This document shows, piece by piece, positions 40,100 to 62,143 of a stretch of DNA of 64,000 bases (positions are counted from its first letter, which is position 1; each line of letters begins with the position of its first letter). Location of the stretch: assembly GCF_028885415.1 (NCBI RefSeq), contig NZ_CP118527.1, positions 3,782,001-3,846,000 of the forward strand, given 5' to 3'. A program made the translations under genes and the position numbers. The notes under the pieces were generated by a model, which ran no database searches, was not told the origin of the DNA, and was given only the letters and a program-made list of their open reading frames with translations. This DNA is from Streptomyces coeruleorubidus (lineage in GTDB: Bacteria > Actinomycetota > Actinomycetes > Streptomycetales > Streptomycetaceae).

Positions 40100-42373
40100 A
40101 TGGATGGCATCTTGCCCAGGTTCAGTGTCATTGTCCCCGCGTACCAGGTTCAGGCGTACCTGCACGAGTGCCTCGAATCGGTGCTCTCCCAGTCCTGTCC
40201 CGATCTGGAACTGATCGTCGTCGACGACTGCTCGCCGGACGCGTGCGGCGCGATCATCGACGAGTTCGCCGCCCGCGACGCGCGCGTCCACCCCGTCCAT
40301 CTACCGGAGAACATCGGCCTGGGCCGCGCGAGAAACGCCGGCGTGGCGCGCGCGAGCGGCGACTACCTGCTGTTCCTCGACAGTGACGACACCCTCACAC
40401 CCGACGCGCTGCGGTCGATCGCGGACCGGCTGAAGGAGACGGGCGATCCGGACGTCCTGGTCTTCGACTACGCGCGCACGTACTGGACGGGTGAGGCGGT
40501 CCGCAACCAGGCGGCCCTCCAGCTCACCGAGCAGGGCCCGGCCCCGTTCCGCCTGGAGGACCGGCCGGGCCTGCTGCGGCTGCTGATGGTCGCCTGGAAC
40601 AAGGCCTACCGGCGGGAGTTCGTCGAGGAGCAGGGGTTCGTCTTCCCGCCCGGGTACTACGAGGACACGCCGTGGACGTACCCGGTCCTCATGACCGCGG
40701 AGTCGATCGCGACCCTGGACCGCGTCTGCGTGCACTACCGGCAGCGGCGGCAGGGCAGCATCCTGCGCACCACCAGTGAGCGGCACTTCGACGTCCTCGA
40801 CCAGTACGACCGGGTGTTCGCGTACCTGGAGGAGCGCGCCGAACTGGCCCGGTGGCGGCCGGTGTTGTTCCGCCGCATGGTCCATCACCTGGTGATCGTG
40901 TACTCCCGGCGGGACCGGCTGCCCCCCGGCTCGCGCGCGGACTTCATGCGCCGGGCCCGCGCCCACTACCGCCGCTACCGCACCCGGGGCGCCCCCGTCC
41001 CCCTGCGCGCCCGGGTGCAGCACACCCTGATCCGCTTCGGCCTGCACCGCACCTACCGCACGCTCCAGCTGGTGTCGGCCCTGCACCGCGGCGTCGCGCG
41101 GAGCACCGGGCATCTGCTGCGCGGTGTGCGGTCCGCCGCGCTCCGGCTCCACTACCGCGTCCAGCGCTGTCTCCCGCTGCGCGCCGACCGGGCCGTCTTC
41201 ACCGCCTACGACGGCCGCGGCCACAGCTGCAACCCGGGCGCGCTGGAGTCCGCGTTCCGCGATCTCGCGCCGCACATCCGCACGGCGTGGGTCGCCCGTC
41301 CCGAGTACCACCACACCATCCCGCCGGGCCCGCGCCGTCTCGTCCCCGGCACGGCCGCCTACTGGACGGCACTCGCCCGCTCCGCCTGGCTGGTCAGCAA
41401 CACCGACTTCGACCACCGCCTGGTCAAGCGCCGGGGCCAGACCCTGATCCAGACCGGGCAGGGCACCCCGCTGGGGCACATCGGCCTCGACCTCCAGGAG
41501 CGCCCGGCGGCGGCCCGGGGCAGGGACTTCGCCCGGCTGCTCAAGGGCGTCGACCAGTGGGACTACGTGCTGTCCGCCAACCGCCACACCACCCTCACCC
41601 ACGAGCGCGTCCACCCCGGCCGCTACACCACGCTGGAGTACGGCTACCCCCGCAACGACGTGTTCCGCACGGCGACTCCGGCGGACGTGGCCCGGCTGCG
41701 CGCCTCGCTCGGCATCCCGGAGGGCACGGTGGCGATCCTCTACGCGCCGACCCACCGCGACTACCGCCGCTCCCAGCGCCACGCCCTCGACCTCCAGCGG
41801 ATCGTGCGCCGCCTGGGCCCGCGCTTCCTCGTGCTGGCCCGCGCCCACCACGCCTACGACACCCCGCTGACCAGCACCTGCGGCCGGGTCGTCGACGTCA
41901 GCGACCACCCGAGCGTCCAGTCCCTGTGCCTGGCCTCGGACGCCCTGGTCACGGACTACTCGTCGCTGATGTTCGACTACGCCAACCTGGACCGGCCGAT
42001 CGTGATCCACGCCGACGACTGGGAGGCGTACGAGGCGGCCCGCGGCACCTACTTCGACCTGCGCTCCTTCCCGCCGGGCGCGGTCGCGCGCGGCGAGGAC
42101 GAGCTGATCGACATCTTCGCCACCGGCCACTGGCGCGGCTCCCGGTCGGCCCAGCTGCGCTCGGCGTTCCGGGAGCGGTTCTGCACGTACGACGACGGCC
42201 GGGCCGCCGAGCGGGTCGTGCGCCGGGTCGTCCTCGGGGAGTCGGACCTGCCGCCGGTCGTGCCGCTCCACGAGCGCCGGCCGGTGCCGTCGGCGGCGGC
42301 CTCGCCGGCGCGCGAGCCGCTCGCCACGGTGCCGCAGCCGGCCGGTCCGGCCGTCGTCACCGACAGCCTCTGA
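40100..42373 (+). CDS. GT2 glycosyltransferase fused to TagF-like CDP-glycerol glycerophosphotransferase (Gln at HGT position)
   Basis: The 757-residue protein has a GT-A domain at about 6-230 (FSVIVPAYQV, VVDDCSPDA, FLDSDD) and a TagF/CDP-glycerol polymerase domain at about 370-725. The latter has GYPRND near 518, YAPTHRDY near 549, RAHHAYD near 580 and TDYSSLMFDYANLDRP near 618. The catalytic motif is QTGQGTPL with Gln454 where TagF enzymes have His (HGTP). It should act on the wall teichoic-type polymer at the inner membrane face. Start: ATG 40100 has no clear ribosome site; TTG 40112, giving LPRFS as in the paralogues, is a good alternative. First gene of the cluster. Confidence 0.85.
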   Translation: MDGILPRFSVIVPAYQVQAYLHECLESVLSQSCPDLELIVVDDCSPDACGAIIDEFAARDARVHPVHLPENIGLGRARNAGVARASGDYLLFLDSDDTLTPDALRSIADRLKETGDPDVLVFDYARTYWTGEAVRNQAALQLTEQGPAPFRLEDRPGLLRLLMVAWNKAYRREFVEEQGFVFPPGYYEDTPWTYPVLMTAESIATLDRVCVHYRQRRQGSILRTTSERHFDVLDQYDRVFAYLEERAELARWRPVLFRRMVHHLVIVYSRRDRLPPGSRADFMRRARAHYRRYRTRGAPVPLRARVQHTLIRFGLHRTYRTLQLVSALHRGVARSTGHLLRGVRSAALRLHYRVQRCLPLRADRAVFTAYDGRGHSCNPGALESAFRDLAPHIRTAWVARPEYHHTIPPGPRRLVPGTAAYWTALARSAWLVSNTDFDHRLVKRRGQTLIQTGQGTPLGHIGLDLQERPAAARGRDFARLLKGVDQWDYVLSANRHTTLTHERVHPGRYTTLEYGYPRNDVFRTATPADVARLRASLGIPEGTVAILYAPTHRDYRRSQRHALDLQRIVRRLGPRFLVLARAHHAYDTPLTSTCGRVVDVSDHPSVQSLCLASDALVTDYSSLMFDYANLDRPIVIHADDWEAYEAARGTYFDLRSFPPGAVARGEDELIDIFATGHWRGSRSAQLRSAFRERFCTYDDGRAAERVVRRVVLGESDLPPVVPLHERRPVPSAAASPAREPLATVPQPAGPAVVTDSL

Positions 42374-42549
42374 ACCCGGTTCTCACATGGGAGTTCACAT
42401 GCCCTCCAGCCCGTCGCGGCCGACCCCGAGCCGACCGCCCTCCTGGCGCCCGTCCGGGAGGCCGGGGCGCCGTCGCGGCACCTGAGGCGGCCCGGGCTTC
42501 CGTAGACCCTCGCCCCCTCGCCCCTCGACCCCTCGACAGAAAGAGCAGA

Positions 42550-44751
42550 ATGCCCCGCTTCAGCATCGTCGTCCCGTCCCATGGGGTCGCGGGCCGGCTG
42601 TCCCAGGCGCTGGACTCGATCCTCGCCCAGTCGTTCGGCGACTTCGAGCTGATCCCGGTGTGCGACGCGCCCGACTCACCCGCGGCGGACGTCGTCGCCG
42701 GGTACGCCGAGCGGGACTCCCGGGTGACGCCGGTGCACTCGCCGCCGTCGGCCGGTCTGGCCGGGGCGCGCAACACCGGGCTGCGGTCGGCGGTCGGCGG
42801 CCATGTGCTGTTCCTCGACGGGGACGACGTCCTGGTCCCGGGGGCGCTGGCGGCGCTGGACGCCCGGCTGGGCGCGGTGGGCGACGTCGACGTCCTGTAC
42901 TTCGAGCACGAGCGCACCCCCTGGTGGGAGGGCGAGCCGGCCAACCCGGCCGCGCCCCTGCTGGCCGGGACACCGGACGGGGCCTTCTCCCCCGACCGGG
43001 CCCCGCGGCTGACGGGCGTGGCGCTGCCGGCGTGGAGCGCGGCCTACCGCCGGGGCTTCCTCACCGAGCAGGGCCTGGCCTTCCCCGGGGACCACTTCAC
43101 CGACACGGGGTTCGGCGGCCTTGTCGCCCTGCGGGCGGAGCGGGTGGCGGCCCTGCGCGCGGTCGTCGTCCGGCATCTGCTGCGCCGGCAGGGCAACCGC
43201 CTCAACCTGCCCGGAGAGCACCACACCGAGCTGCTCGACCAGACCGAGCTGGTGCTGACGCGGGCCGTGGAGCAGGGGCTGCCGGCGGACCGGCTGCGGC
43301 CGCTGTTCGAGCAGCTCTTCGCCGCCGTACTGAAGACGGCCGCCCATCCCCGGCGGCTGCCGGCCGGGCGGCGTGCCTTCTTCCAGCGGGCGAGCGCGCT
43401 CTACCGGCAGCACCGCCCCGCCGGCTACCAGCCGCCCGGCGGCAGCCTCGGCGTCCAGCACCGGCTGCTGGCGGCCGGGTCGTACGCGGCCTTTCGCACC
43501 TTGCGCGCCGCCAACCGGAGGGCCGCGCGGGCCGCCGCGCTGCTCCCGCGCCCCCGGGGGCTGCGCACCCGCCTGCGGTACGCGGCCGGTCTGCGCCTCC
43601 CCCTCGACAAGAACCTCGTCGTGTACTGCGCGTACTGGGGCCGCGGCTACGCCTGCAACCCGGCCGCGATCCACGCCAAGGCCCGCGAACTCGCCCCGCA
43701 CCTGCGTTCGGTGTTCCTGGTGGAGCCCGACGCGGTGGACAGCGTGCCGAAGGACGTGGAGTACGCGGTGATCGGCAGCCGCAAGTACTGGCAGGTGCTG
43801 GCCCGCGCCGAGTACCTCGTCAACAACGCCAACTTCGCGGACGCCGTCGTCAAACGGCCCGGCAGCGTGCACCTCCAGACCCAGCACGGCACACCGCTGA
43901 AGAAGATGGGCGCCGACCAGGCGACGTACCCCGTGGTGGCCGCGGCGACCGGGAGCTTCGCCAAGCTGCTGGCCCGGGTCGACCGCTGGGACTACAACCT
44001 CACCTCCAACCGCCACTCCACCGAGATGTGGGAGAAGGCGTTCCCGGGCGCCCACGAGACCCTCGAGTACGGCTATCCGCGCAACGACGTCTACTGCACG
44101 GCGTCCGCCGAGGACGTCGCCCGCGTCCGCAAGGAACTGGGCGTCCCGGACGGCAAGAAGGCCCTGCTCTACGCGCCCACGCACCGCGACTACGCCACCG
44201 GCTTCGAGTCGGGGCTGGACCTCGCGGAGTTCTGCGAGGCGATCGGCGACGACTACGTGGTGCTGCTGCGCGCCCACTACTTCTACGACCAGGGGGCGAG
44301 CCGGGGCGGCGGCCGGATCATCGACGTCACCGGGCACCGCTCCTCGGAGGACGTGTGCCTGGCCGCCGACGCGCTGATCACCGACTACTCGTCGATCATG
44401 TTCGACTACGCCAACCTGGACCGGCCGATCGTCGTGTACGCCGACGACTGGGAGGTCTACCGGGAGGTCCGGGGCGTCTACTTCGACCTGATGGGGGTCC
44501 CGCCCGGCCGGGTATGCCGCACGCCCGAGGAACTGGCGGCCGTGTTCCGCGACGGCGGCTGGGCCGACGAGTCAGCCACGGCCCTGCGCGCCGCGTTCCG
44601 GGAGCGCTTCTGCCAGTTCGACGACGGGCGGGCCGCCGAGCGCGTCGTACGCCGGGTGCTGCTGGGGGAGCCGCCCGAGTCGATCCCGCCCGTGATCCCG
44701 CTCGCGGAGCGCGTCCCGGCCCCCGCCGCCGCCACCCTCGTAAGGAGCTGA
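42550..44751 (+). CDS. GT2-TagF fusion, canonical HGT motif
   Basis: The 733-residue paralogue opens MPRFSIVVPSHGV. The GT-A domain keeps FLDGDD but the first acidic motif is weakened (PVCDAPDSP instead of VDD-S-D). The TagF domain has LQTQHGTPLKKMG with His446, GYPRNDVY, YAPTHRDY, LRAHYFYD and TDYSSIMFDYANLDRP. It is predicted to be an active glycerophosphotransferase. It lies 176 bp after the first fusion and 8 bp before the third. Confidence 0.87.
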   Translation: MPRFSIVVPSHGVAGRLSQALDSILAQSFGDFELIPVCDAPDSPAADVVAGYAERDSRVTPVHSPPSAGLAGARNTGLRSAVGGHVLFLDGDDVLVPGALAALDARLGAVGDVDVLYFEHERTPWWEGEPANPAAPLLAGTPDGAFSPDRAPRLTGVALPAWSAAYRRGFLTEQGLAFPGDHFTDTGFGGLVALRAERVAALRAVVVRHLLRRQGNRLNLPGEHHTELLDQTELVLTRAVEQGLPADRLRPLFEQLFAAVLKTAAHPRRLPAGRRAFFQRASALYRQHRPAGYQPPGGSLGVQHRLLAAGSYAAFRTLRAANRRAARAAALLPRPRGLRTRLRYAAGLRLPLDKNLVVYCAYWGRGYACNPAAIHAKARELAPHLRSVFLVEPDAVDSVPKDVEYAVIGSRKYWQVLARAEYLVNNANFADAVVKRPGSVHLQTQHGTPLKKMGADQATYPVVAAATGSFAKLLARVDRWDYNLTSNRHSTEMWEKAFPGAHETLEYGYPRNDVYCTASAEDVARVRKELGVPDGKKALLYAPTHRDYATGFESGLDLAEFCEAIGDDYVVLLRAHYFYDQGASRGGGRIIDVTGHRSSEDVCLAADALITDYSSIMFDYANLDRPIVVYADDWEVYREVRGVYFDLMGVPPGRVCRTPEELAAVFRDGGWADESATALRAAFRERFCQFDDGRAAERVVRRVLLGEPPESIPPVIPLAERVPAPAAATLVRS

Positions 44752-44759
44752 CCGAAGAA

Positions 44760-47000
44760 GTGCCCCGCTTCAGCATCATCGTCCCCGTCTACAAGGTGCA
44801 GGGCTTCCTGCGCGAGTGTCTCGACTCGGTGCTCGGCCAGTCGTACGGCGACTTCGAGGTGATCGCCGTGGACGACCGCTCGCCGGACGGCAGCGGCGCG
44901 ATCCTCGACCATTACGCGGCCCGCGACGACCGGGTGCGGGTGCTGCACCTGTCCGAGAACGTCGGCCTGGGCCGGGCCCGCAACGCCGGCCTGGAGCAGG
45001 CGGCCGGCGACTACGTCCTGTTCCTCGACAGCGACGACCACTACACGCCGGGCCTGCTGGCTGCCGTCGCCGCGCGCCTCGAAGCGACCGGCGAGCCGGA
45101 CATCCTGGTCTTCGACCACGTGCGCACCCACTGGTGGGGCCGGGGCGGGCGCAGTGAAGCGGCGGACCTGCTGGCCGCGGCGGGCACGGACACCTTCGGC
45201 ATCCGGGAGAGCCCGCAGTACCTGAACCTCTTCCTGGTCGCCTGGAACAAGGCGTACCGCCGGTCCTTCTTCCAGGAGCACGGCCTTCGGTACGCGCCGG
45301 GGCTGTACGAGGACGCGCCGGTCACCTACCGGTCGATGGTGCTGGCGGAGCGGATCGCCTGCCTGGACCGGATCGGGGTGGAGTACCGGCAGCGCCGGCA
45401 GGGCGCGATCACCAAGACGCCGGGGCGGCGGCACTTCGACATCTTCACCCAGTACGAGGGCCTGTTCGCGTTCCTGGAGCAGCGCCCCGACCTCGACTGG
45501 GCGCGGCCGCTGCTGCTGGAGCGGGCCCTGGACCACATGCTGTTCGTGCTGTCCCGGGAGGACCGGGTGCGGCCGGCGGACCGGGGCGACTTCTACCGCG
45601 AGATCCGCTCCTTCCACCGCCGTCACCTCCCCGGGGGCGGCTGCCCGGAGCCGGACGGCTGGCGCGGGGTCGAGATGCGGCTGGTGGCGTCGGCGCCCTA
45701 CGCGTCGTACGCGGCGGTGCGGGGTCTGCGGGACCTGCGCGCGGCGGCCCTGGGCGGGCAGCGGCGGGTGACGCGGAAGGCGTCGGATGTCGCCGTGCGC
45801 ACCTGGTACCGGGCCCAGTCGAAGCGCCCCCTCGATCCGCATCTCGCCGTCTACTCGGCGACCCACCACCGGGGCGTGTCCGGCGACCCGGCCGCGATCC
45901 ACGCCAAGGCGCGGGAGCTCGCCCCGCACATCCGGGGCGTGTGGGTGGTCCGGGAGGACGCGGTGGACGCGCTGCCGCCCGGCGTCGACCATGTGACGCC
46001 GGGCTCGCGGCGCTATCACGAGGTCATGGCGCGGGCCACGTACTGGGTGAACAACGTCAACTGGCCCGGCACCCTGGCCAAGCGGCCCGGCAGCGTCCAC
46101 ATCCACACCCACCAGGGCACCCCGCTCAAGTACATGGGCGCGGACCTGCTGACCAAGCCGGGCGCCCGGCACGGCTTCGACGTGCCGCAGATGTTGCGCC
46201 GCGCCGACCGCTGGGACTACAGCCTGGTCGGGGGCCGGCACGCGGAGCGGGCCTGGGAGCGGGCGTACCCGTGCCACTTCACCTCGCTGCGGACCGGCAG
46301 CCCGCGCAACGACGTGCTGGTCGGCGCCGGCCCGGAGCGGGGCCCGGCCGTGCGCGAGCGGCTCGGCATCCCCGCCGACCACACGGTCGTGCTGTACGCG
46401 CCGACCCGCCGCGACTACCGGCGGGGCGGGCACGTCGACCGGTTCGACCTGGCCCGGTTCGCCGCGGACCTCGGCCCCGGCCACACGCTCGTCGTCCGTC
46501 TGCACCCGTCGCTTGCCGGGGGCGTGGCGCGCGGCCTGGGCCTTGCCGACCTGCACCGGCGGGGGGTGGTGGTGGACGCGACGGACGAGCCGCACGTCGA
46601 GGACGTGATGCTCGCCTCCGACGCGCTGGTCACCGACTACTCCGCCCTGATGTTCGACTACGTCCTCCTCGACCGGCCGGTCGTGGTGCACGCCGACGAC
46701 TGGGGCGCGTTCACGGCGAGCCGGGGCGCCTACTTCGACATCACGGCCGACGCGCCGGGGCACGTGTCGCGCTCGTACCGGGAGCTGGCCTGGCTGTTCG
46801 CTTCCGGCACCTGGCGGGACGCGGAGTCGGCGCGGCTGCGGGCGGGCTTCAGGGAGCGGTACTGCGAGTTCGAGGACGGGCAGGCCGCCGAGCGGGTCGT
46901 CCGTCTGCTGATGCTGGGCGAGCGGGTCGGTGCGCTGCTGCCGGCGGCACGCCGGACCCCGGGGCTGCCCGCCCGGTCCGAGGCGCTGGTCGAGCGATGA
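44760..47000 (+). CDS. GT2-TagF fusion (Gln at HGT position)
   Basis: The 746-residue paralogue starts at GTG 44760, 8 bp after the previous stop, with AAGGAG upstream. The GT-A domain is intact (VPRFSIIVPVYKV, AVDDRSPDGSG, FLDSDD). The TagF domain has IHTHQGTPLKYMG: His precedes Gln452, so the HGT histidine is displaced by one position. Other blocks are SPRNDV, YAPTRRDY (THRD changed to TRRD), VRLHPSLAGG (the only copy with the classical RxHP) and TDYSALMFDY. It diverges most from the other three and may transfer a different polyol phosphate or be structural. The stop overlaps the next gene. Confidence 0.85.
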   Translation: MPRFSIIVPVYKVQGFLRECLDSVLGQSYGDFEVIAVDDRSPDGSGAILDHYAARDDRVRVLHLSENVGLGRARNAGLEQAAGDYVLFLDSDDHYTPGLLAAVAARLEATGEPDILVFDHVRTHWWGRGGRSEAADLLAAAGTDTFGIRESPQYLNLFLVAWNKAYRRSFFQEHGLRYAPGLYEDAPVTYRSMVLAERIACLDRIGVEYRQRRQGAITKTPGRRHFDIFTQYEGLFAFLEQRPDLDWARPLLLERALDHMLFVLSREDRVRPADRGDFYREIRSFHRRHLPGGGCPEPDGWRGVEMRLVASAPYASYAAVRGLRDLRAAALGGQRRVTRKASDVAVRTWYRAQSKRPLDPHLAVYSATHHRGVSGDPAAIHAKARELAPHIRGVWVVREDAVDALPPGVDHVTPGSRRYHEVMARATYWVNNVNWPGTLAKRPGSVHIHTHQGTPLKYMGADLLTKPGARHGFDVPQMLRRADRWDYSLVGGRHAERAWERAYPCHFTSLRTGSPRNDVLVGAGPERGPAVRERLGIPADHTVVLYAPTRRDYRRGGHVDRFDLARFAADLGPGHTLVVRLHPSLAGGVARGLGLADLHRRGVVVDATDEPHVEDVMLASDALVTDYSALMFDYVLLDRPVVVHADDWGAFTASRGAYFDITADAPGHVSRSYRELAWLFASGTWRDAESARLRAGFRERYCEFEDGQAAERVVRLLMLGERVGALLPAARRTPGLPARSEALVER

Positions 47001-48799
47001 GAACTCCCGCCGGCCCCGAGGCCGTTCCCTCCCTGCCCGGCCAGCGGGCCTCCTCGGCGCGGCCGCCGGCCGCCGTGGAGCGGCTGCGGCCGGTGCACTG
47101 GTGGCACGCGGCACTGGTCGTCGTACCGACCGCGGCCCTGTTCGTGCTGGGTTACCGACGGCGTTGGATCTGCGACGACGGGCTGATCTATCTGCGTCCG
47201 GTCCGGCAGATCCTGGCGGGCAACGGGCCCGTGTTCAACGTGGGGGAACGGGCGGAGAGTTCGACCGGCACCCTGTGGCAGTGGCTGCTGGCGCTCGGCA
47301 CCTGGGTCACCGGCGAGGACCCGGCGTTCCTCGCGGTCGGGCTCGGGCTGCTGCTGAGCACGGCCGGTTTCGGGCTCGCCCTGTACGCCACGTGCCGGCT
47401 GCACCGGGGCGCGGGGCCGCTGCTTCCCGCGGGTGTGTTCGTGCTGCTGGCCGTGCCGCCCTTCTGGTCGTACATGACCTCGGGCCTGGAGAGCGGCCTC
47501 GGCGCCTTCTGGACCGGCCTGTCGTGGTGGTTGCTGACGGGCACCCGGCGCGGCCAGGAGGCCCGCCTGACGTACGCCGCCGCCTTCGTGTTCGGGCTGG
47601 GTCCGCTGGTCCGGCCCGATCTCGCGGTGGTCACGGTGTGCTTCCTGGCGGCGCAGTGGTGGGTGCTGCGCCCGGCCCGGCGGGGCACCGCGGCGATGCT
47701 GGCCTCGGCGGTGGCGCTGCCGCTGGCGTACGAGGTGTTCCGCGCGGGGTACTACGGGATCCTGGTGCCGCTGCCCGCCATCGCCAAGGAGGCGAGCGCC
47801 AGCGACTGGGGCCGGGGCGCCGGCTATGTGCAGGAGACGCTCGGGCCCTACTGGCTGTGGCCGGTCGTGCCCGTGCTCGCCGCGCCGGCCGTCCTCCTGG
47901 TGCGGCGCACCCGCCATCAACGGCGGGACCGCGCCCCGGGGCGGGCCTCGCTCGCGGTGCTGCTGGCGCCGCTCGTGGCGGGTGCGCTGCTGGCGGGGTA
48001 CGTCGTCCGCGTCGGCGGCGACTACATGCACGCCCGCATGATCCTGCCCGCCCTCCTCCTGCTGCTCCTGCCGGTCCTGGTCGTTCCCGCCAGGTTCACG
48101 GGCGTGGTGAGCGCGCTGCTGGTGGTGTGGCTGTGCGCGGCGGTCAGCCCGCTGCGGGCACCGTTCGACGTGCGCAGCACGCCCGGCTCCTTCAACGTGC
48201 GCAGCTCCGACGTGGAGGGCCTCGGCGACCACAACCCGGTGCGCACCGCCACCTGGGTGGACAACTGGCCGTCCCTGCCGGAGGGGCGCGGCATGCTGGC
48301 TCGGGCCGCACGGGCGCCCCGGCCGACGCTGCTGTACTTCGACGCCGGGCGCCGGCTGCACGCCACGCCGATGCGGGAGGACGCCCCGTACCACGTGGTG
48401 ATCGTGGGACGTCATCTCGGTGTCACGGGAGCCGCGGCGCCGCTCGACGCCTATGTCAACGACGCCTGGGGGCTGGCCAGTCCCATCGGCGCGCACCTCG
48501 CGCTGGAGCGGTGGAGCTGGCCCGGGCACGAGAAGTTCCTGCGCAACTACTGGGTCTTCGCGGAGTGGGCGGTGGAGCACCCGCCGCAGCGCGATCTGCT
48601 GCGGGCCGGGGCCTCGCGGGAGGCGGTCGAGGCGGCTCGGGCCGCGCTGGCCTGCGGCGAGCTGGCCGAGCTGAAGGAGTCGGTCCGCGCGCCGCTGACC
48701 GCCGAGCGGTTCTGGCGGAACCTCACGGGGGCCTTCGAGCGGACGCAGTTCCGTTTCGCACGCTGGCCGGTCGCGGCGGAGCGGGCGCTGTGCGACTGA
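46997..48799 (+). CDS. GT-C membrane glycosyltransferase (AftB-like)
   Basis: The 600-residue protein has about ten hydrophobic spans in its first 400 residues and an extracytoplasmic C-terminal domain. The first external loop reads CDDGLIYLRPVRQILAGNG, then FNVGERAESSTGTLWQ. This acidic-pair motif and context match the mycobacterial beta-arabinofuranosyltransferase AftB and related lipid-sugar-dependent GT-C enzymes. It likely adds a sugar from polyprenyl phosphate to the exported polymer. Its ATG overlaps the stop of the third fusion gene (ATGA). Confidence 0.8.
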   Translation: MRTPAGPEAVPSLPGQRASSARPPAAVERLRPVHWWHAALVVVPTAALFVLGYRRRWICDDGLIYLRPVRQILAGNGPVFNVGERAESSTGTLWQWLLALGTWVTGEDPAFLAVGLGLLLSTAGFGLALYATCRLHRGAGPLLPAGVFVLLAVPPFWSYMTSGLESGLGAFWTGLSWWLLTGTRRGQEARLTYAAAFVFGLGPLVRPDLAVVTVCFLAAQWWVLRPARRGTAAMLASAVALPLAYEVFRAGYYGILVPLPAIAKEASASDWGRGAGYVQETLGPYWLWPVVPVLAAPAVLLVRRTRHQRRDRAPGRASLAVLLAPLVAGALLAGYVVRVGGDYMHARMILPALLLLLLPVLVVPARFTGVVSALLVVWLCAAVSPLRAPFDVRSTPGSFNVRSSDVEGLGDHNPVRTATWVDNWPSLPEGRGMLARAARAPRPTLLYFDAGRRLHATPMREDAPYHVVIVGRHLGVTGAAAPLDAYVNDAWGLASPIGAHLALERWSWPGHEKFLRNYWVFAEWAVEHPPQRDLLRAGASREAVEAARAALACGELAELKESVRAPLTAERFWRNLTGAFERTQFRFARWPVAAERALCD

Positions 48800-48912
48800 C
48801 GTCGGCAGGTGGGTGTAGCCGCCTCACCCGATGAAGTGACCCGGGGTCAGGCCTCGGGTACGGGCGGGAACATTCGGCGCATGCCTCAGTCCTTCCCCTT
48901 TCCCACAGTCCT

Positions 48913-50472: not shown

Positions 50473-50483
50473 CGTGCCGGTGC

Positions 50484-50897
<414 letters not shown>

Positions 50898-50970
50898 GAA
50901 AATCCTTCCCTCTCACACGTCAACGTTCGGCGGCCCGCTTCCGGGCCGCCCGACAGCCAGAATTAGAGCA

Positions 50971-50985
50971 CACAACTAAGTTGTG
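50971..50985. promoter_or_regulatory. OhrR operator palindrome
   Basis: CACAACT-A-AGTTGTG is a perfect 15-bp palindrome in the 124-bp ohr/ohrR divergent region, followed by TTGTGCGCAA as a second partial dyad. It lies 74 bp upstream of ohr and 37 bp upstream of ohrR, consistent with repression of both. Confidence 0.8.
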
Positions 50986-51021
50986 CGCAATTGAATGGCG
51001 GGCACGAGCTACCCTGGAGGC

Positions 51022-51510: not shown

Positions 51511-51607
51511 CGGAGGCGGGGGGCTCGCCGGTGGGCGCGCCGGGTGGCTGATCGGTGGTAGCTGCGTCGGCGAGTGGCTCGTCGGCGGACGGCCCGTCGG
51601 GCATCAA

Positions 51608-51637
51608 GGGGCGCGGGGAACTGCGCGATCAACCACC
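51608..51637. repeat. Streptomyces-type interspersed intergenic repeat, short form
   Basis: GGGGCGCGGGGAACTGCGCG followed by ATCAACCACC matches a motif that, from memory, recurs hundreds of times between genes in Streptomyces genomes. It begins with the same GGGGCGCGGGG as the element at 25987. It lies in the 267-bp gap between ohrR and the convergent GT39 gene. Confidence 0.6.
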
Positions 51638-51720
51638 GACGGCCGGCACTCGACACGAAACCCCAAGCTGCCACGGCGCCTGGCGGACGGCTCGTCAGCG
51701 GTGGCTGCCCCGGCGGACGT

Positions 51721-51840
51721 ACCTTGGCGGACGGCTCACCGACGTCGTCACGTCGGCGGACAGTTCACCGGCAGTCGCTACGCCGGCGGACAGCTCATCG
51801 GCGGTCGCGACGCCGGTGGACGGCTCGCCCGTGGCCCCGA
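51721..51840. repeat. 30-bp tandem repeat array at the 3' end of the GT39 gene
   Basis: Four consecutive 30-bp units (51721, 51751, 51781, 51811) share a CGGCGGACAGCTCACCGGCG-like core. The second and third are most alike. The array spans the stop codon of the minus-strand GT39 gene (51778), so about half is coding (RASRPPASRPP tail) and half intergenic. Related CGGCGGACGGCTCG fragments occur upstream to about 51570. Confidence 0.75.
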
Positions 51841-53418: not shown

Positions 53419-53512
53419 CACGGCCCGATTCTGTGCCGTTGCGCAGGCTTTGATGACACTTGATGGTGTGTTACCACTTTCATGTCATTCGCCCGGCTTA
53501 CGATCCGCCGTG

Positions 53513-55129: not shown

Positions 55130-55193
55130 GAGCACGACGCGTATCGGCACAGAGCACCACCACCACGGGCCAACTGACGAGGGGACGGCCGCA

Positions 55194-56196
55194 ATGACCT
55201 GGTTGATCACCGGCGGCGCCGGCTACATCGGAGCGCACGTCGTACGGGCGATGACCGCGGCAGGCGGTGGTGTACGACGACCTGTCCACCGGTATCGCCG
55301 TGTACGACGACCTGTCCACCGGTATCGCCGGGCGGGTGCCCGACGGGGTGCCGCTGGTGGCGGGCTCGACGCTGGACGGCGAGCGGCTCGCGCGCACCCT
55401 CGCGGACCACGCCGTCACCGGCGTCGTCCACCTCGCGGCGAAGAAGCAGGTGGGCGAGTCGGTCGAGCAGCCGCTGCGCTACTACCGGGAGAACGTCGAG
55501 GGCCTGCGCGTCCTGCTGGCCGCGGTGACGGCGGCGAAGGTGCCGTCCTTCGTCTTCTCCTCCTCGGCGGCGGTGTACGGCATGCCGGACGTGGACCTGG
55601 TCACGGAGGAGACGCCCTGCGTGCCCATGTCGCCCTACGGCGAGACGAAGCTGGCCGGTGAGTGGCTGGTGCGCGCGACGGGCCGGGCGACCGGGCTGTC
55701 GACCGCGTCCCTGCGGTACTTCAACGTGGCCGGGGCGGCGAGCCCGGAGCTCGCGGACGTCGGTGTCTTCAACCTCGTCCCCATGGTCTTCGAGAAGCTC
55801 ACGGAGAACGCGCCCCCGCGCATCTTCGGCGACGACTACCCGACGCCGGACGGCACCTGCGTACGCGACTACATCCACGTCGTCGACCTGGCCGAGGCCC
55901 ATGTCGCGGCGGCCCGGGTCCTGAGCTCCTCCCCCGGCCGCGACCTCACGGTCAACATCGGCCGGGGCGAGGGCGTCTCCGTCCGCGAGATGATCGACCG
56001 CATCAACACGGTCACCGGCTACGACCGGCCGCCCACGGTCACGCCGCGCCGCCCGGGCGACCCGGCCCGAGTCGTCGCCTCCGCCGAGCGCGCGGCCGCG
56101 GAGCTGGGCTGGAAGGCCCGGCACGACGTCCAGGACATGATCACCTCGGCGTGGGAGGGCTGGGTGCGCCTGCATCCGGAGGCGGCGCGGGGCTGA
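55194..56196 (+). pseudogene. galE: galE-type UDP-glucose 4-epimerase with N-terminal frameshift
   Basis: A start ATG with GAGGGGA upstream opens MTWLITGGAGYIGAHVVRAM, the Rossmann NAD-binding motif, in one frame. From codon 25 the epimerase continues only in the +1 frame from 55267 (VYDDLSTGIAGRVPDGV, SSSAAVYG, SPYGETKLAGEW with the catalytic YxxxK, YFNVAGA). A perfect 30-bp duplication (55270-55329) immediately follows the break. An 8-bp loss at GCAGGCG microhomology would explain the shift. As written, the enzyme lacks its NAD motif unless ribosomes or polymerase slip. It would have supplied UDP-galactose to the neighbouring transferases. Sequencing error is possible. Confidence 0.75.
55270..55329 (+). 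repeat. perfect 30-bp tandem duplication inside galE
   Basis: Two adjacent identical units starting GTGTACGACGACCTGTCCAC (55270-55299 and 55300-55329) repeat the residues VYDDLSTGIA. Identity is complete, so the duplication is recent. The frameshift in galE lies within about 10 bp upstream. Confidence 0.95.
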
Positions 56197-56464
56197 TCGG
56201 CGCCGGGCCGACGACAGGGGTCCACTCGCGGACCGAGCGCACCTCGACGCCGGGCGTGCGGTGGTAGTAGGGGTCTTCGTGCAGGATCTCGTCCAGACGT
56301 GCCCGGTCGACCGTGAAGAGCAGGAGGGCGCCGGTGTCGTCGGCCCACGGGCCGGCGGCTGCCAGGTGTCCGTCGGCGTGCAGACGGGCGAGGGTCTCGC
56401 GGTGTGCGGGACGGGCGGCCAGGCGCTCCGGGGCAGGGGTGAAGGCGAGTTCCACGGCGAACAC
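56141..56464 (-). CDS. YCII-related domain protein
   Basis: The 107-residue protein reads FAVELAFTPAPERLAARPAH at the start, with HADGHLAAAGPWADDTGALLLF and the conserved DPYYHRTPGVEVRSVREW. These are the YCII/DGPF-type dimeric alpha-beta barrel blocks with His and Asp candidates. Members include dechlorinating and unknown enzymes. GTG 56464 has AAAGGA six bases upstream. Its 3' end overlaps galE by 56 bp on the opposite strand. It is divergent from a Crp/Fnr regulator whose palindrome lies between them. Confidence 0.8.
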   Translation of the reverse strand: MFAVELAFTPAPERLAARPAHRETLARLHADGHLAAAGPWADDTGALLLFTVDRARLDEILHEDPYYHRTPGVEVRSVREWTPVVGPAPISPAPPPDAGAPSPPTPR

Positions 56465-56530
56465 GGCGGGTCCTTTCCGGGCCGGTGTACGGGGTCGGTG
56501 GTGAGGTTACGCTCGGGCCGCCGGATGGTG

Positions 56531-56548
56531 CTGTATCACGCGATACAG
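56531..56548. promoter_or_regulatory. Crp/Fnr-type palindrome between divergent genes
   Basis: CTGTATCACGCGATACAG has 7-bp perfect arms (CTGTATC/GATACAG) around ACGC. It lies 13 bp upstream of the regulator start at 56561 and 67 bp upstream of the YCII gene. Size and spacing fit a Crp/Fnr dimer site, so autoregulation is likely. Confidence 0.7.
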
Positions 56549-56560
56549 ACGGGAGTCGGT

Positions 56561-57241
56561 GTGGACGGGCACGGATGGCGGCGGCTGCGGGACGTACCGC
56601 TGTTCGCGCGGTTGCCGGACGCCGACCTGGTCGCCCTGTGGGACGTGTCCGTACCGCGCCGCTACGCCGCCGGGGAGGTACTGCGGATGCAGGGCGAGCC
56701 GGCCGATCATCTGCTCGTGCTGCTGAGCGGGAGCACGGCGGCGTCCGCGGCGACGGCGGGTGGGCGGGTGGTGCGGTTCGGCACGTGGAGGGGGCCGTGC
56801 GCGCTGGACAAGGTGGCGCTGCTCGACGGGGCGGGCCACACCGCGACGTTCACGGCGGTCGGGGCGTGCAGCGTGCGCGCCGTGCCGCGAGCGCGGTTCA
56901 TGACGCTGCTCGACGACTCCGCGGCGGTCCGCTCACATGTGCTGCGGCTGCTGGCCGCCCAGGCGCGCGCCCAGCAGGACCGGCTGACGGTCACGATGAC
57001 CCTGCCGTGCGAGGCACGCCTCGCGGCCTGGCTGCTGGAAACGGCGGCCGACAGCGGGCCTCTGGTCTCCCTGCCCGGTTCCCAGCAGGGCCTCGCCGAC
57101 CTGCTCGGTGTCACCCGGGTGACGGTGAACCGCGCGCTGTCCCGCCTCCGGTGTGACGGCCTGGTCCGTCCGGCACCGGACGGCCGGATCGAACTGCTCG
57201 CCCCGGAGCTGCTTGCGCAGCGCGCCGCCCGGCACGGCTGA
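56561..57241 (+). CDS. Crp/Fnr-family transcriptional regulator
   Basis: The 226-residue protein has a cyclic-nucleotide-binding-like beta-roll (about 10-125: FARLPDADLVALWDVSVPRR, GEVLRMQGEPADHLLVLLSG) and a C-terminal Crp helix-turn-helix (PGSQQGLADLLGVTRVTVNR near 178-197). No Cys cluster for an iron-sulphur centre is present. GTG 56561 with GGGAG six bases upstream was chosen over the in-frame ATG 56525, because the palindrome would otherwise lie inside the gene. The effector is unknown. Confidence 0.88.
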   Translation: MDGHGWRRLRDVPLFARLPDADLVALWDVSVPRRYAAGEVLRMQGEPADHLLVLLSGSTAASAATAGGRVVRFGTWRGPCALDKVALLDGAGHTATFTAVGACSVRAVPRARFMTLLDDSAAVRSHVLRLLAAQARAQQDRLTVTMTLPCEARLAAWLLETAADSGPLVSLPGSQQGLADLLGVTRVTVNRALSRLRCDGLVRPAPDGRIELLAPELLAQRAARHG

Positions 57242-57255
57242 CGGGCGACCCGGCC

Positions 57256-57882
57256 CTACAGCGCCTTCAACGCCTCCGCGCTGGCCCGGGCCAGCGACCC
57301 CAGATACCCCTTGGGCAGCTTGGGGCTGCGGATCACCACCGAGCGCCAGTAGAGCGGTCCGGAGATCAGGTCGAGGGCCAGGTCTCGGTCGAGGCCCCGG
57401 CGGAGTTCGCCGCGGGCTTCCGCCGCCGTGACGATGCCGGTCGCGACACCGTCCTGGCCCTCGCGCAGGGCCTTCTGGAGGGCCTCGGCGATCTCCGGGT
57501 TGCGGGCCGCCTCGGCCTGGAGGTCGGGGATGACCTGCGAGGCGACGGGGTGGCGCAGGGCGCGGGACGTCACCTCGTACAGCAGCCGCAGGTCGCCCTC
57601 CAGTGAGCCGGTGTCCGGCACGGGCAGGCCCTGCACGGCGAGCGCCGAGACGATGTCGAGGACCAGGTGCAGCTTGGAGCGCCAGCGGCGGTACACCGCC
57701 GTCTTCCCGACCCCCGCCCGGCGCGCGATCCCCTCGATGGACATCCGCGCGTAGCCGACGGCCGCGAGCTCCTCGAAGACGGCCGCCCGGATGGCTTCCG
57801 TCACGTCCTCCCGCAGTACGGCCGCCCCCGCGGGGGCCCGGCGGCGCCGGGGCTGCTGGGGCTCGTCGGGCTTCGTCGTCAT
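57256..57882 (-). CDS. TetR-family transcriptional regulator
   Basis: The 208-residue protein has the TetR HTH at about 30-75 (EAIRAAVFEELAAVGYARMS, IEGIARRAGVGKTAVYRRWR). The C-terminal domain (ASQVIPDLQAEAARNPEIAE, YWRSVV) is of the TetR_C_11-like type. It is divergent from the teichoic-acid exporter gene tagG with 211 bp between starts, so tagGH is its most likely target. It is convergent with the Crp/Fnr gene (14-bp gap). Confidence 0.9.
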   Translation of the reverse strand: MTTKPDEPQQPRRRRAPAGAAVLREDVTEAIRAAVFEELAAVGYARMSIEGIARRAGVGKTAVYRRWRSKLHLVLDIVSALAVQGLPVPDTGSLEGDLRLLYEVTSRALRHPVASQVIPDLQAEAARNPEIAEALQKALREGQDGVATGIVTAAEARGELRRGLDRDLALDLISGPLYWRSVVIRSPKLPKGYLGSLARASAEALKAL

Positions 57883-57991
57883 GCCGACAGCATAGGGCGT
57901 CACGACGAAACGGTTGCGTTCCGACGTTCGATCGACGTACGCTCCCGTTGCGACGATACGGTCCCGTCCCGACGTAAGAAATCGTGAAGAG

Positions 57992-58039
57992 TCCGGTAAG
58001 AACCGACCCGCCGCATCCGGCAAGAACCGCCCCAGCGCA
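57992..58039. repeat. 24-bp direct repeat upstream of tagG
   Basis: Two adjacent 24-bp units starting TCCGG(T/C)AAGAACCG (57992-58015 and 58016-58039) differ at four or five positions. They lie in the tetR-tagG divergent region, 55-100 bp upstream of the tagG start. The plus frame is open through them (SGKNRP twice), so they could be coding if tagG starts further upstream; an operator role is equally possible. Confidence 0.55.
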
Positions 58040-58093
58040 TCGCTCTTCGCGACCCCACAGGTCCCACACCCCCCTCGAACGAAAGCAGCGGAT

Positions 58094-59008
58094 GTGAGCC
58101 AGGTCCTCCACACACCGCCCCAAGCACCGGCCCCGGCCGACGACGACCTCGCGGCCCTCGCCGCCCGCCACGGCCTCTCCGTCAGCGGCGCCCGCCCCTC
58201 CCTGCCCGAGTACGTCCGCCAGCTGTGGGCCCGCCGCCACTTCATCACCGCGTTCGCCACCGCCAAGCTCACCGCCCAGTACAGCCAGGCGAAGCTCGGC
58301 CAGGTCTGGCAGGTCATGACCCCGCTGCTGAACGCGGCGGTCTACTACTTCATCTTCGGCGTGCTGCTCGGCACCAAGCACGGAGTACCGGACTACATCC
58401 CGTTCCTGGTCACCGGCGTGTTCATCTGGACGTTCACACAGAGCTCGATCATGGCGGGCACCCGCGCCATCTCCGGCAACCTCGGCCTGGTGCGCGCCCT
58501 GCACTTCCCGCGCGCCGCGCTGCCCCTGTCGTTCTGCCTCCAGCAGCTGCAGCAGCTGCTGTTCTCGATGGGCGCCCTGGTCGTCATCCTGCTCTGCTTC
58601 GGAGTGCCGGTCGGGGTGTCCTGGCTGCTGGCGCTGCCGGCGCTGTTCCTGCAGTTCACGTTCAACGCGGGCGTCTCCATGGTCATGGCCCGGATGGGCG
58701 CCAAGACCCCGGACATCGCCCAGCTGATGCCGTTCGTGCTGCGCACCTGGATGTACGTCTCGGGCGTCATGTGGAGCATCGACAAGCTGGCGCAGAAGGA
58801 CAGCCTCCCGCACGCGGTGACGGTGGCGCTCACGGTCAACCCGGCCGCCGTCTACATCGACCTGATGCGCTTCGCCCTGATCGACAGCTTCCACGCGAGC
58901 CAGCTCCCGGCCCATGTGTGGGCGCTCGCCGCCGGCTGGGCGCTGGTCGCCGGCGTCGGCGGCTTCATCTACTTCTGGAAGGCTGAGGAGACGTACGGCC
59001 GTGGCTGA
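58094..59008 (+). CDS. tagG: TagG-like ABC-2 permease, teichoic acid exporter
   Basis: The 304-residue protein starts at GTG 58094 and has an N-terminal amphipathic region (PSLPEYVRQLWARRHFITAF). Six ABC-2 spans follow (YYFIFGVLLGTKHGV; FLVTGVFIWTFTQSSIMAG; VIGNLGLVRAL-type block NLGLVRALHFPRA). It forms the membrane half of the exporter that flips undecaprenyl-linked teichoic polymer. It overlaps tagH by 8 bp. Divergent from a TetR regulator. Homology is to TagG/Wzm exporters of Gram-positive walls. Confidence 0.9.
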   Translation: MSQVLHTPPQAPAPADDDLAALAARHGLSVSGARPSLPEYVRQLWARRHFITAFATAKLTAQYSQAKLGQVWQVMTPLLNAAVYYFIFGVLLGTKHGVPDYIPFLVTGVFIWTFTQSSIMAGTRAISGNLGLVRALHFPRAALPLSFCLQQLQQLLFSMGALVVILLCFGVPVGVSWLLALPALFLQFTFNAGVSMVMARMGAKTPDIAQLMPFVLRTWMYVSGVMWSIDKLAQKDSLPHAVTVALTVNPAAVYIDLMRFALIDSFHASQLPAHVWALAAGWALVAGVGGFIYFWKAEETYGRG

Positions 59009-59831
59009 GCACCTGAGCGAGAAGATCCCCACCGTCGTCGCCGACGGCGTCGACATCGTCTACCGCGTCAACGGCACCGGCGCCGGACGCGGCTCCGCGA
59101 CCGCCGCCCTCAACCGCATGCTGCGCCGGGGGCAGACCGAGAAGGCGTCGGGCGTGCGCCGGGTGCACGCCGTGAAGAACGTGTCCTTCGTGGCGTACCG
59201 GGGCGAGGCGATCGGCCTGATCGGCACCAACGGCTCCGGCAAGTCGACCCTGCTGAAGGCCGTCGCCGGGCTCCTCCCCGTGGAGAACGGCCGTATCCAC
59301 ACCGACGGCCAGCCCTCCCTGCTCGGTGTCAACGCGGCCCTGATGAACGACCTGACCGGCGAGCGCAACGTGTACCTCGGCGGCCTGGCCATGGGCATGT
59401 CCCGCGAGCAGATCAGGGAGCGCTACCAGGACATCGTCGACTTCTCCGGCATCAACGAGAAGGGCGACTTCATCACGCTGCCGATGCGCACGTACTCCTC
59501 GGGCATGGCCGCGCGCCTGCGGTTCTCCATCGCCGCCGCCAAGGACCACGACGTACTGCTGATCGACGAGGCGCTGGCCACCGGCGACCGCTCCTTCCAG
59601 AAGCGCTCCGAGGACCGCATCCGCGAGCTGCGCAAGCACGCCGGGACGGTGTTCCTGGTCAGCCACAACAACAAGTCGATCCGCGACACCTGCGACCGCG
59701 TGCTCTGGCTGGAGCGCGGGGAACTGCGCATGGACGGGCCGACGGAGGACGTCCTCAAGGAGTACGAGGCGTTCACCGGCGACAAGTCCCCCAAGGCCAA
59801 GCCGCAGCCCAAGGTGCCTGTTCCCTCGTAA
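59001..59831 (+). CDS. tagH: TagH-like ABC ATPase, teichoic acid exporter
   Basis: The 276-residue protein has Walker A GTNGSGKST at about 75-83, the SLLGVNAALMNDLTGERNV block typical of polysaccharide-export ATPases, the signature YSSGMAARLRFSIA and Walker B VLLIDEALATGD with SHNNKSI after it. There is no long C-terminal SH3/wall-binding domain as in B. subtilis TagH. The GTG start lies within tagG. Its stop codon is inside a 19-bp tandem duplication. Confidence 0.92.
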   Translation: MAEHLSEKIPTVVADGVDIVYRVNGTGAGRGSATAALNRMLRRGQTEKASGVRRVHAVKNVSFVAYRGEAIGLIGTNGSGKSTLLKAVAGLLPVENGRIHTDGQPSLLGVNAALMNDLTGERNVYLGGLAMGMSREQIRERYQDIVDFSGINEKGDFITLPMRTYSSGMAARLRFSIAAAKDHDVLLIDEALATGDRSFQKRSEDRIRELRKHAGTVFLVSHNNKSIRDTCDRVLWLERGELRMDGPTEDVLKEYEAFTGDKSPKAKPQPKVPVPS

Positions 59832-59848
59832 GGTGCCCGTTCCCTCGT
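59811..59848 (+). repeat. 19-bp tandem duplication over the tagH stop codon
   Basis: AAGGTGCC(T/C)GTTCCCTCGT occurs at 59811-59829 and 59830-59848 with one difference. The first copy is coding (KVPVPS) and ends at TAA; the second lies directly after and would read the same residues to a TGA. It is a recent slippage event with no effect on the product. Confidence 0.9.
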
Positions 59849-59938
59849 GAGGCGCACCCTGGTCGGCCCTTTTGTCGCATTGGTGACACCATGACCGAAC
59901 AAGGTCCGCCTGGTGCGACGAGATGGAGGAGCCCTGTG

Positions 59939-62143
59939 ATGCCCGAGCTCAGCGTCATCGTCCACGGGCCGAACGTGCAGGACCATCTGACGGAGCTCCT
60001 CGACTCCCTCGCCGCCCACCCCCTGCCGGACGCCGAGCTGATCGTGGCCGCGGTCGGCGACTGGGCCCGGGAGACGGCCGAGCGGCACACCCCGGACGGC
60101 GGTCCGGTCGACGTAGTCCCCCTGCCGGCCGGCACCGGCGACGCCGCGGCCCGGGCGGCGGGGGCGGCACGGGCCTCCGGCCGCTGGCTGCACTTCGTCC
60201 ACGCCAAGGACGGCCTGCCCGCCGGCGCCCCGCGCACGGTCGCCGAGCGGGTGGCCGAGCTGCCCGGCGAGGTGGACGTCCTGCTCCTCGACCACGTCCG
60301 CAGCACCTGGCACACCTCCGGCATGCCCTCCCGGGACGGCTCCCTGCTCGCCCGGGCGGGCCGCGCCGACGTCGCCCTCGACGACTGCGCGCCGCTGCTG
60401 CGCCTGACCCCGCTGCTCGGCACCCGCGTGCTGCGCGCGGACTTCTGGCGGGCGCACGAGCAGCGGCTCACCACCGACGACGAGCCGTACGCCGCCCTGG
60501 CCGCCCTGCTGCTGGCCGACCGCGTCGCCTGCCTGCCGCACGTCGCCTACGAGGACCGCAGGCTGCGCCGCGCGAGCCTGCCCTCCATCACGCCCGAGCA
60601 GCGCTACGGCCTCGTCGAGCGCTACGAGTCGCTCCTCGACCTCACCCGGGACCGCCGCGCCGCCCACGGCGTGCTCTACGACGTCATGGTCCGCGACTGC
60701 CTGCGCACCTTCACGCGCGGCGGCATGGCGGAGGAGGTCGCGCGGGAGTTCTTCAGGCGGGCGTCCCTGGCCGCCCTGCGCCGCCGCCCCGAGGGCTACC
60801 GGCGCCCCGCCGGTCTCGAAGGCGTCCGCCGCTCCCTGCTCGAAGAGGGCGCCTACGCCAGGTACCGGGCCTTCCAGGCCGTCAACCGCACCCGCCGCAC
60901 CGCCAAGTCGGCCGTGCGGACCCGGAAGCGGCAAGTCGGCGCCAAGCTCCGCGACCACCAGTACCGCAGGGCGCTCGGCCGCCCGGTCAATCCGCACCTG
61001 GCGGTGTTCTCGGCGTACTGGAACCGCGGTGTCGCCTGCAACCCGGCCGCGATCGCCGCGAAGCTCGCCGAACTGGCCCCGCAGATCCACCCGGTGTGGG
61101 TGGTGACCGAGGAGAACGCGGCCCTGCTGCCGCCCGGCACCGACCACGTCGTGCCCGGCAGCCGCCGTTACTGGGAGGTGCTGGCGAGTGCCAAGTACCT
61201 CGTCAACAACGTCAACTTCCCCAACGCCGTGGTCAAACGCCCCGACGCGATCCACCTCCAGACCCACCACGGCACGCCGCTCAAGCGCATGGGCCTGGAC
61301 CAGATGGCGTACCCGGCGGCCGCGCAGGGCCTGGACTTCCAGGCGCTGCTGGAGCGCATCGACAAGTGGGACTACAGCGTCTCCGCCAACAGCCACACCA
61401 CGCGCATGTGGGAGCGCGCGTACCCGTCGCACTACGTCTCCCTCGACCACGGCTATCCGCGCAACGACGTCTACTACACGGCCGGCGCTCAGGACATCCG
61501 CAGCGTCCGCGACAGGCTCGGCATCGCGCCGGGCCGCCGGGCCGTCCTCTACGCGCCCACCCACCGCGACTACGAGGCCGGCTGGACCCCGCGCCTGGAC
61601 CTCGCCGCCCTCGCCGACCGCCTCGGCGAGGACACGGTCCTGCTCGTGCGCGGCCACTACTTCTACGGCGGCGCGGCCTCCCCGCTCACCAGCCTGCGCC
61701 GCACGGGCCGGATCATCGACGTCTCCTCCTACGACCCGGTGGAGGAGCTGTGCCTGGCGGCGGACGCCCTGGTCACGGACTACTCCTCGATCATGTTCGA
61801 CTACGCCAACCTGGACCGCCCGATCGTGATCCACGCCGACGACTGGGAGACGTACCGCACCACCCGCGGCGTCTACTTCGACCTGATGGCCGAGGCCCCG
61901 GGCCCCGTCGCCCGCACCCAGCAGGAGCTGACGGAGATCCTCGCCACCGAGGCCTGGCACGACGAGGGCGCGGCGAAGGCCCGGGCCGTCTTCCGGCGCC
62001 GGTTCTGCGAGTACGACGACGGACGCGCCGCCGAACGCGTGGTCCGCCGGGTCTTCCTCGGCCAGGACGAACAGTCCCTGCCGCCGGTGCTGCCGATCGA
62101 GGAACGCACCCCGGCCCCGACCCCGCAGGAGGCGACCGCATGA
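59939..62143 (+). CDS. TagF-like glycerophosphotransferase with degenerate GT2 domain
   Basis: The 734-residue paralogue opens MPELSVIVHGPNV. The GT-A region (5-225) has lost its motifs: AAVGDWARETA replaces VDD-S-D, and HFVHAKDG replaces FLDSDD. The TagF domain is canonical: LQTHHGTPLKRMG with His444, GYPRNDVY, YAPTHRDY, VRGHYFYGG and TDYSSIMFDYANLDRP. It probably acts only as the polyol-phosphate transferase, with the GT2 part structural. ATG 59939 has GGAGGA nine bases upstream; an in-frame ATG at 59891 lacks one. It lies 107 bp after tagH and overlaps the next gene by four bases. Confidence 0.87.
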   Translation: MPELSVIVHGPNVQDHLTELLDSLAAHPLPDAELIVAAVGDWARETAERHTPDGGPVDVVPLPAGTGDAAARAAGAARASGRWLHFVHAKDGLPAGAPRTVAERVAELPGEVDVLLLDHVRSTWHTSGMPSRDGSLLARAGRADVALDDCAPLLRLTPLLGTRVLRADFWRAHEQRLTTDDEPYAALAALLLADRVACLPHVAYEDRRLRRASLPSITPEQRYGLVERYESLLDLTRDRRAAHGVLYDVMVRDCLRTFTRGGMAEEVAREFFRRASLAALRRRPEGYRRPAGLEGVRRSLLEEGAYARYRAFQAVNRTRRTAKSAVRTRKRQVGAKLRDHQYRRALGRPVNPHLAVFSAYWNRGVACNPAAIAAKLAELAPQIHPVWVVTEENAALLPPGTDHVVPGSRRYWEVLASAKYLVNNVNFPNAVVKRPDAIHLQTHHGTPLKRMGLDQMAYPAAAQGLDFQALLERIDKWDYSVSANSHTTRMWERAYPSHYVSLDHGYPRNDVYYTAGAQDIRSVRDRLGIAPGRRAVLYAPTHRDYEAGWTPRLDLAALADRLGEDTVLLVRGHYFYGGAASPLTSLRRTGRIIDVSSYDPVEELCLAADALVTDYSSIMFDYANLDRPIVIHADDWETYRTTRGVYFDLMAEAPGPVARTQQELTEILATEAWHDEGAAKARAVFRRRFCEYDDGRAAERVVRRVFLGQDEQSLPPVLPIEERTPAPTPQEATA

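Follow-up and report, generated by a model that had tools for sequence, protein, structure and literature searches.

We analysed a 64,000-nucleotide stretch of the Streptomyces coeruleorubidus genome (the window; assembly GCF_028885415.1, contig NZ_CP118527.1, positions 3,782,001 to 3,846,000 of the forward strand) that carries four genes, here called A to D, each joining a GT2 glycosyltransferase domain to a TagF-type domain. None of the four has both the GT2 and the TagF catalytic motif sets complete: A and C pair an intact GT2 half with a TagF half that has lost its proximal catalytic histidine, and B and D pair a degenerate GT2 half with a canonical TagF half. We hold it moderately probable, judging from these sequences and those of relatives, that duplicated bifunctional GT2–TagF polymerases have split their labour, with B and C as a natural complementary pair. 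The complementary state of the GT2 halves, which a first-pass annotation of this DNA had overlooked, and the constant pairing of B with C are the new points.

Genes A (40100..42373, 757 amino acids), B (42550..44751, 733 amino acids) and C (44760..47000, 746 amino acids) stand in tandem on the forward strand, with the GTG start codon of C lying 8 bp past the stop codon of B; D (59939..62143, 734 amino acids) is on the same strand. Pfam places both domains in one chain in all four genes, with PF04464 scores of 390.6 (A), 444.6 (B), 388.2 (C) and 449.2 bits (D) at a curated cut-off of 22.1 and GT2 domain scores of 130, 62, 128 and 23 bits, respectively; the Pfam scan found no TPR domain in any of them. 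AlphaFold models of A and C, which inform on fold and give no active-site geometry, also contain both domains and retain both folds. Identity to A is 45% for B, 47% for C and 40% for D, and a family search of the whole 9.41-Mb, one-contig genome returned no PF04464 gene besides these four. Among the named records listed, from which the nearest relative may be missing, C is closest to those of S. swartbergensis, S. africanus, S. afghaniensis and S. coeruleorubidus (96–97%).

Excerpts of published work report that two histidines are required in the TagF-like polymerases Cps1B and Cps7D (PMC5974469), and TagF is likewise stated to need both (PMC11666461). In alignment to Staphylococcus epidermidis TagF (PDB 3l7i–3l7m), the proximal site is H444, where the H444N construct reads Asn; a second construct has Ala in place of the distal His, counted here as position 584, although the title of 3l7m gives H548A. 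The alignment bears out the assignment made in the first-pass annotation, with Gln at the H444 position in the copies at 40100 and 44760 and His in those at 42550 and 59939. Specifically, A has Gln454 (TGQGTPL; computed codon 41459..41461), C has His451-Gln452 (THQGTPL; computed codons 46110..46115), B has His446 (TQHGTPL; computed codon 43885..43887) and D has His444 (THHGTPL; computed codon 61268..61270). The annotation had also credited all four copies with the distal His, PRND and TDYSS motifs. The distal His (H584; His576 in B, His582 in C) and PRND are indeed present in all four, but C reads TDYSA. Relative to S. epidermidis TagF, A and C therefore lack the proximal His, and their N-terminal half is instead a TarS-like fold with complete GT2 aspartates. 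The residue preceding the His also follows a pattern: TQHG occurs in B and most A sequences, THHG in D and most bifunctional relatives. An excerpt of PMC11666461 associates QHG with hexose-phosphate transferases and WHG with glycerol-phosphate polymerases. This preceding residue may report donor type.

We searched the genus for PF04464, D and A in 81, 200 and 200 genomes, respectively, the window genome included, and picked loci from best-hit lists in a way that favoured genomes with A-B-C. The resulting 262 fusion open reading frames, window genes included, comprise 91 A (93 with two very degenerate copies), 58 B, 56 C, 16 D and 41 other fusions. A matched at cut-off in 128 of 200 genomes, and 93 A reading frames were studied; D was fully read in 16 genomes, and its presence was called in 47 of 200 by a gap in identity and score, although drafts may hide it. 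Classes were assigned by best match and identity, with C requiring at least 56% in the main set and 60% in a set of named records, and motif counts were taken from alignment columns, leaving out named-set loci with an unreadable motif. When the motif columns were masked, a tree of 99 selected TagF halves recovered each of A, B, C and D as one clade with 99–100% support in the Shimodaira–Hasegawa-like approximate likelihood ratio test (SH-aLRT), and other fusions are interspersed among these clades. A second tree, a quick one made without a mixture model and accompanied by long-branch warnings, included relatives near the class limit that read THH; there the 56 C sequences form one clade (SH-aLRT 100) and the THH sequences L180, L184, G069 and G221, the last from another genus, fall outside it.

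Across this sample the two halves are complementary. The GT2 aspartates are complete in 87 of 91 A and in all 56 C sequences (Asn at the first place in five), and in none of the 58 B or 16 D sequences; the first Asp is Cys in 49 B, and in D the DxD motif is mostly HxK and the block of the first Asp is a gap. The proximal TagF His has the opposite distribution, being kept in 58 of 58 B, 16 of 16 D, 50 of 93 A and one of 56 C. With the His absent from 55 of 56 C and 43 of 93 A sequences, and from none of B or D, the Gln residues seen in the window are not chance. Both halves are complete in 16 of the 41 other fusions, as they are in each of the five copies read at two loci from other genera, one of which is a tandem triplet. 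In a quick tree the members of this triplet group close to the A-like, B and C lineages, with a long-branch warning on the B-like placement. The simplest history suggested by these sequences is that duplicated bifunctional enzymes lost opposite halves. The automatic label 'bifunctional' may accordingly be wrong for all four window genes, which would offer a natural case of duplicated two-domain enzymes with opposite halves lost, and the pattern suggests for every one of these look-alike genes a role that can be tested.

The loss in C is old and nearly fixed. The canonical site reads Q in 47, R in seven, L in one and H in one of the 56 sequences, and all 56 have a His one residue upstream, the distal His and Arg574. 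Three accompanying changes are fixed (F429W, Y509S and a gap after the distal His, the gap in 56 of 56), and the Ser following TDYS is Ala in 43 of 56. Since the nearest bifunctional relatives of C mostly read THH, C kept the first His and lost the second. A search across 121 genomes of the family supplied loci from its 20 best places; among these, the sequences read from other genera that matched C best have THH and not HQ. The two halves of C are equally constrained (GT2 0.260, TagF 0.254; TagF higher in 16 of 28 pairs). B lies directly upstream of C in 56 of 56 cases, with a stop-to-start gap of 1–88 bp (median 5.5), and in the named set B shares the locus of all 60 full-length C genes; full-length A is absent from two C loci (G042 and G059). 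By these patterns the change in C is old, clade-wide, syntenic and under purifying selection, and a specialised or partner role therefore fits.

Gene A has a different history. Where its proximal His is absent, the site reads Q in 15, R in eight, A in six, D in five, P in three, E in two, and T, N, Y or G in one each. On a tree of the A GT2 halves, in which one of the 93 rows (G051) was placed among the outgroup, the His/non-His state changes ten times, at least five of them on starred branches, and residue identity changes 23 times; the four GT2 aspartates tested on the same tree change 0–1 times each. The window copy sits in a small clade together with copies from other species that still have TGHGTPL. 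Of 70 TagF positions that are otherwise conserved, a mean of 9.4 are changed in A sequences without the His and 2.3 in those with it, whereas GT2 changes are similar (2.0 and 1.8); within the main A clade the TagF means are 9.8 for the 39 rows without the His and 2.1 for the 24 rows with it. The window copy has just five TagF changes, so its decay would be early. The ratio of non-synonymous to synonymous substitution rates (dN/dS) is higher in the TagF than in the GT2 half in 17 of 21 disjoint closest pairs without the His, versus nine of 25 with it (Fisher p 0.003), and the distal His is also gone in 11 of the 43 A sequences lacking the proximal one. As read from these alignments, His loss in A is recurrent and lineage-specific, with erosion and relaxed selection confined to the TagF half.

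Taken by their sequences, the two Gln genes thus differ in kind: C is a conserved variant that looks partner-like, and A is a copy undergoing erosion. The annotation had split the four genes into HGT and QGT classes, a division that does not survive: A and C are separate clades, and the site residue varies within each (Q, R, L, E or V in C; ten residues in A). A single QGT class or clade is ruled out, as A and C are not sisters in the masked-motif tree of TagF halves. The suggested check for a QGT clade with conserved synteny accordingly has a divided outcome, with A and C separate and C alone forming one clade beside B. The view that the losses mark specialised roles rather than random decay fits C, whose change is clade-wide, syntenic and under constraint, and does not fit A, with its recurrent loss and eroding TagF half.

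From the observed residues, conservation, pairing and selection pattern we infer a division of labour, including the activities, a B–C complex and its polymer. B and D would perform the TagF step and A and C the GT2 step, the opposite half of each being degenerate, variant or decaying. B and C, closely spaced and never seen apart, most likely work as a single two-component polymerase. Both would build the same polymer, C by transferring the sugar and B by transferring the polyol-phosphate. With its fold, most of its donor-side residues and the offset His preserved, the TagF half of C could act as a partner that binds acceptor or donor, or could be a transferase of weak or altered activity. The GT2 half would be the reason why A is retained even as the TagF half of A decays, and D would work alongside a TagGH-like exporter and a separate GT2 gene. 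The two-component polymerase for a wall polymer proposed in the first-pass annotation is therefore a good hypothesis for B–C, given their constant pairing and complementary halves, and not for a QGT class. A stronger version is conceivable but somewhat doubtful: B–C would be an obligate two-protein polymerase that arose when duplicated bifunctional enzymes were half-inactivated reciprocally, with the sugar transferase in C and the polyol-phosphate transferase in B, and the TagF half of C, left with one of two adjacent His, would now be dedicated to handling the acceptor or to priming in the synthesis of a Streptomyces wall polymer.

The capsule polymerase Cps1B has the same arrangement as A to D, a single chain in which a GT-A (GT2) domain precedes a TagF domain. 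As reported in an excerpt of PMC5974469, a Cps1B GT-A mutant combined with TagF mutants restores polymer synthesis in vitro, in trans. Because B and C resemble these half-mutants, we propose the sugar step for C and the polyol-phosphate step for B; in the window, however, the complementary halves reside in separate natural genes. If the obligate two-protein version is right, B–C would be a natural parallel to the trans-complementation that was engineered in TagF-like capsule polymerases. The models predict that the GT2 half of A and C matches the fold of TarS, TarP and RmlT, including the region past the GT-A core, and both have the GT-A fold with DxD and a catalytic Asp of these wall teichoic acid-decorating GT2 enzymes. 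Side-chain sugar decoration is therefore as likely as a backbone sugar. To our knowledge, the solved TarS, TarP and RmlT chains have no TagF domain, whereas the GT2 domain of A and C is fused to one.

Several observations weigh against this division of labour. B retains DxD in 56 of 58 sequences and D185 in all 58, and its GT2 half may therefore not be dead. In A, the PRD motif and two Asp residues of the TagF half are invariant in 93 of 93 sequences, and dN/dS of that half is well below 1, so that selection is still purifying and the TagF half is not simply junk. In two genomes an A lacking the His is the sole PF04464 protein (G085, C1:3644742-3645827; G151, C1:3858369-3859451); a canonical TagF cannot complement A there, and the split is therefore not universal. 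In these genomes either the GT2 half of A would work alone or its TagF half would be active without the His. One C sequence (G124) has His at the canonical site. L180, L184 and G069, which are 55–57% identical to C, read THH and have no B beside them; they fall outside the C clade, but the class limits were set by identity. Finally, an excerpt of PMC11666461 describes Cps7A, a PF04464 protein, as an active glycerol-phosphate transferase (a transition transferase) with Tyr at H444. By this published description Cps7A is like A and C in lacking His at H444, so loss of H444 is no proof of inactivity and C may be active.

The Cps7A precedent favours a rival explanation, that C, and perhaps A, still transfers polyol- or sugar-phosphate by means of a different base, the upstream His taking over in C, perhaps with a different donor or acceptor. 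The invariance of that His, of the distal His and of Arg574 in C and the equal constraint on its two halves would fit such an enzyme. We nevertheless judge it rather unlikely: the canonical residue varies in C, the gap after the distal His is universal and the Ser after TDYS is mostly replaced, the His at −1 is inherited rather than a new device, because it is present in nearly all bifunctional relatives (THH), and A has no fixed substitute.

Plain relaxed decay of redundant copies, without any partner function, could instead account for both losses. It suits A, with its ten state changes, 23 residue changes and loss of the distal His; one genome (G086) has A only as a TagF-half remnant, and another (G173) gave no A match in the search of 200 genomes. 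As an explanation for both genes it is quite improbable, since the change in C is clade-wide with fixed accompanying changes, TagF dN/dS is not relaxed and B is always adjacent. For A alone, the arrival of D might have made the TagF half redundant, hence its decay where D is present. Among genomes with A, B and C, a His-less A occurs in 28 of 33 with D and five of 22 without (Fisher p 5e-6). This strong raw association disappears on the tree, as independent pairs, few of them informative, give no association in either direction, and those five genomes lost the A His without D. We therefore keep replacement of A by D only as a weak rival and regard it as highly improbable. The split of labour between formerly bifunctional polymerases, with B–C as its complementary pair, remains the reading we prefer.

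By gene order, we take SCO2981–SCO2983 and SCO2997 of Streptomyces coelicolor to be likely orthologues of A-B-C and D. SCO2997, a TagF homologue of that species, is said, going by the title of a 2011 work by Kleinschnitz, to be linked to sporulation. An excerpt of PMC3937824 lists all four as wall teichoic acid glycosyltransferases. The wall polymers reported for S. coelicolor, according to part of PMC7831098, are teichulosonic acid and a minor polydiglycosylphosphate, and in Streptomyces griseus a teichuronic-type polymer on wall teichoic acid is described as the receptor for antibacterial umbrella toxins (PMC13274773, in excerpt). The enzymes building these Streptomyces chains are little described in the open-licence PMC papers searched, and none of those listed was found to deal with half-inactive Streptomyces GT2–TagF pairs, itself weak evidence of novelty.

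D is located after a TagG/TagH-like exporter pair (58094-59831, forward strand). The first gene encodes a TagG/Wzm-like permease of the ABC-2 (ATP-binding cassette) type (58094..59008; Pfam PF01061, with an NCBIfam galactan Wzm score of 79 bits, below its cut-off of 380), and the second a TagH-like ABC ATPase (59001..59831; NCBIfam TagH, 188 bits, below its cut-off of 320). A stand-alone GT2 gene with SDD, LDSDD and YED motifs (62140..63786, forward strand) overlaps the end of D by 4 bp. At the D loci of 15 relatives, a TagH relative was seen in 13 and a relative of the stand-alone GT2 in 14, some loci ending too early for both. PF04464 matches are absent in three of the 81 genus genomes (G019, G020 and G031), and TagF-type polymers may therefore be dispensable in the genus.

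In the window genome, a search for CDP-polyol supply returned four PF01128 and three PF01467 matches, none in the window. Away from the window, a second strong IspD/TarI-family match (G000:C1:3290884-3291576; 162 bits, in a 515-amino-acid open frame) is a candidate CDP-polyol synthesis gene. After C, a polytopic protein (47075-48799, forward strand) has no Pfam match and scores 274 bits with the NCBIfam model for terminal beta-(1->2)-arabinofuranosyltransferase (cut-off 1050); it would be a sugar transferase of AftB-like type lying within a teichoic acid locus. Among 55 C loci from related genomes, most of them too short on this side to tell, five contain a relative. A GDP-mannose-dehydratase/epimerase-like gene begins with an exact 30-bp tandem duplication (55270-55330, forward strand), which repeats VYDDLSTGIA and adjoins the chosen start.
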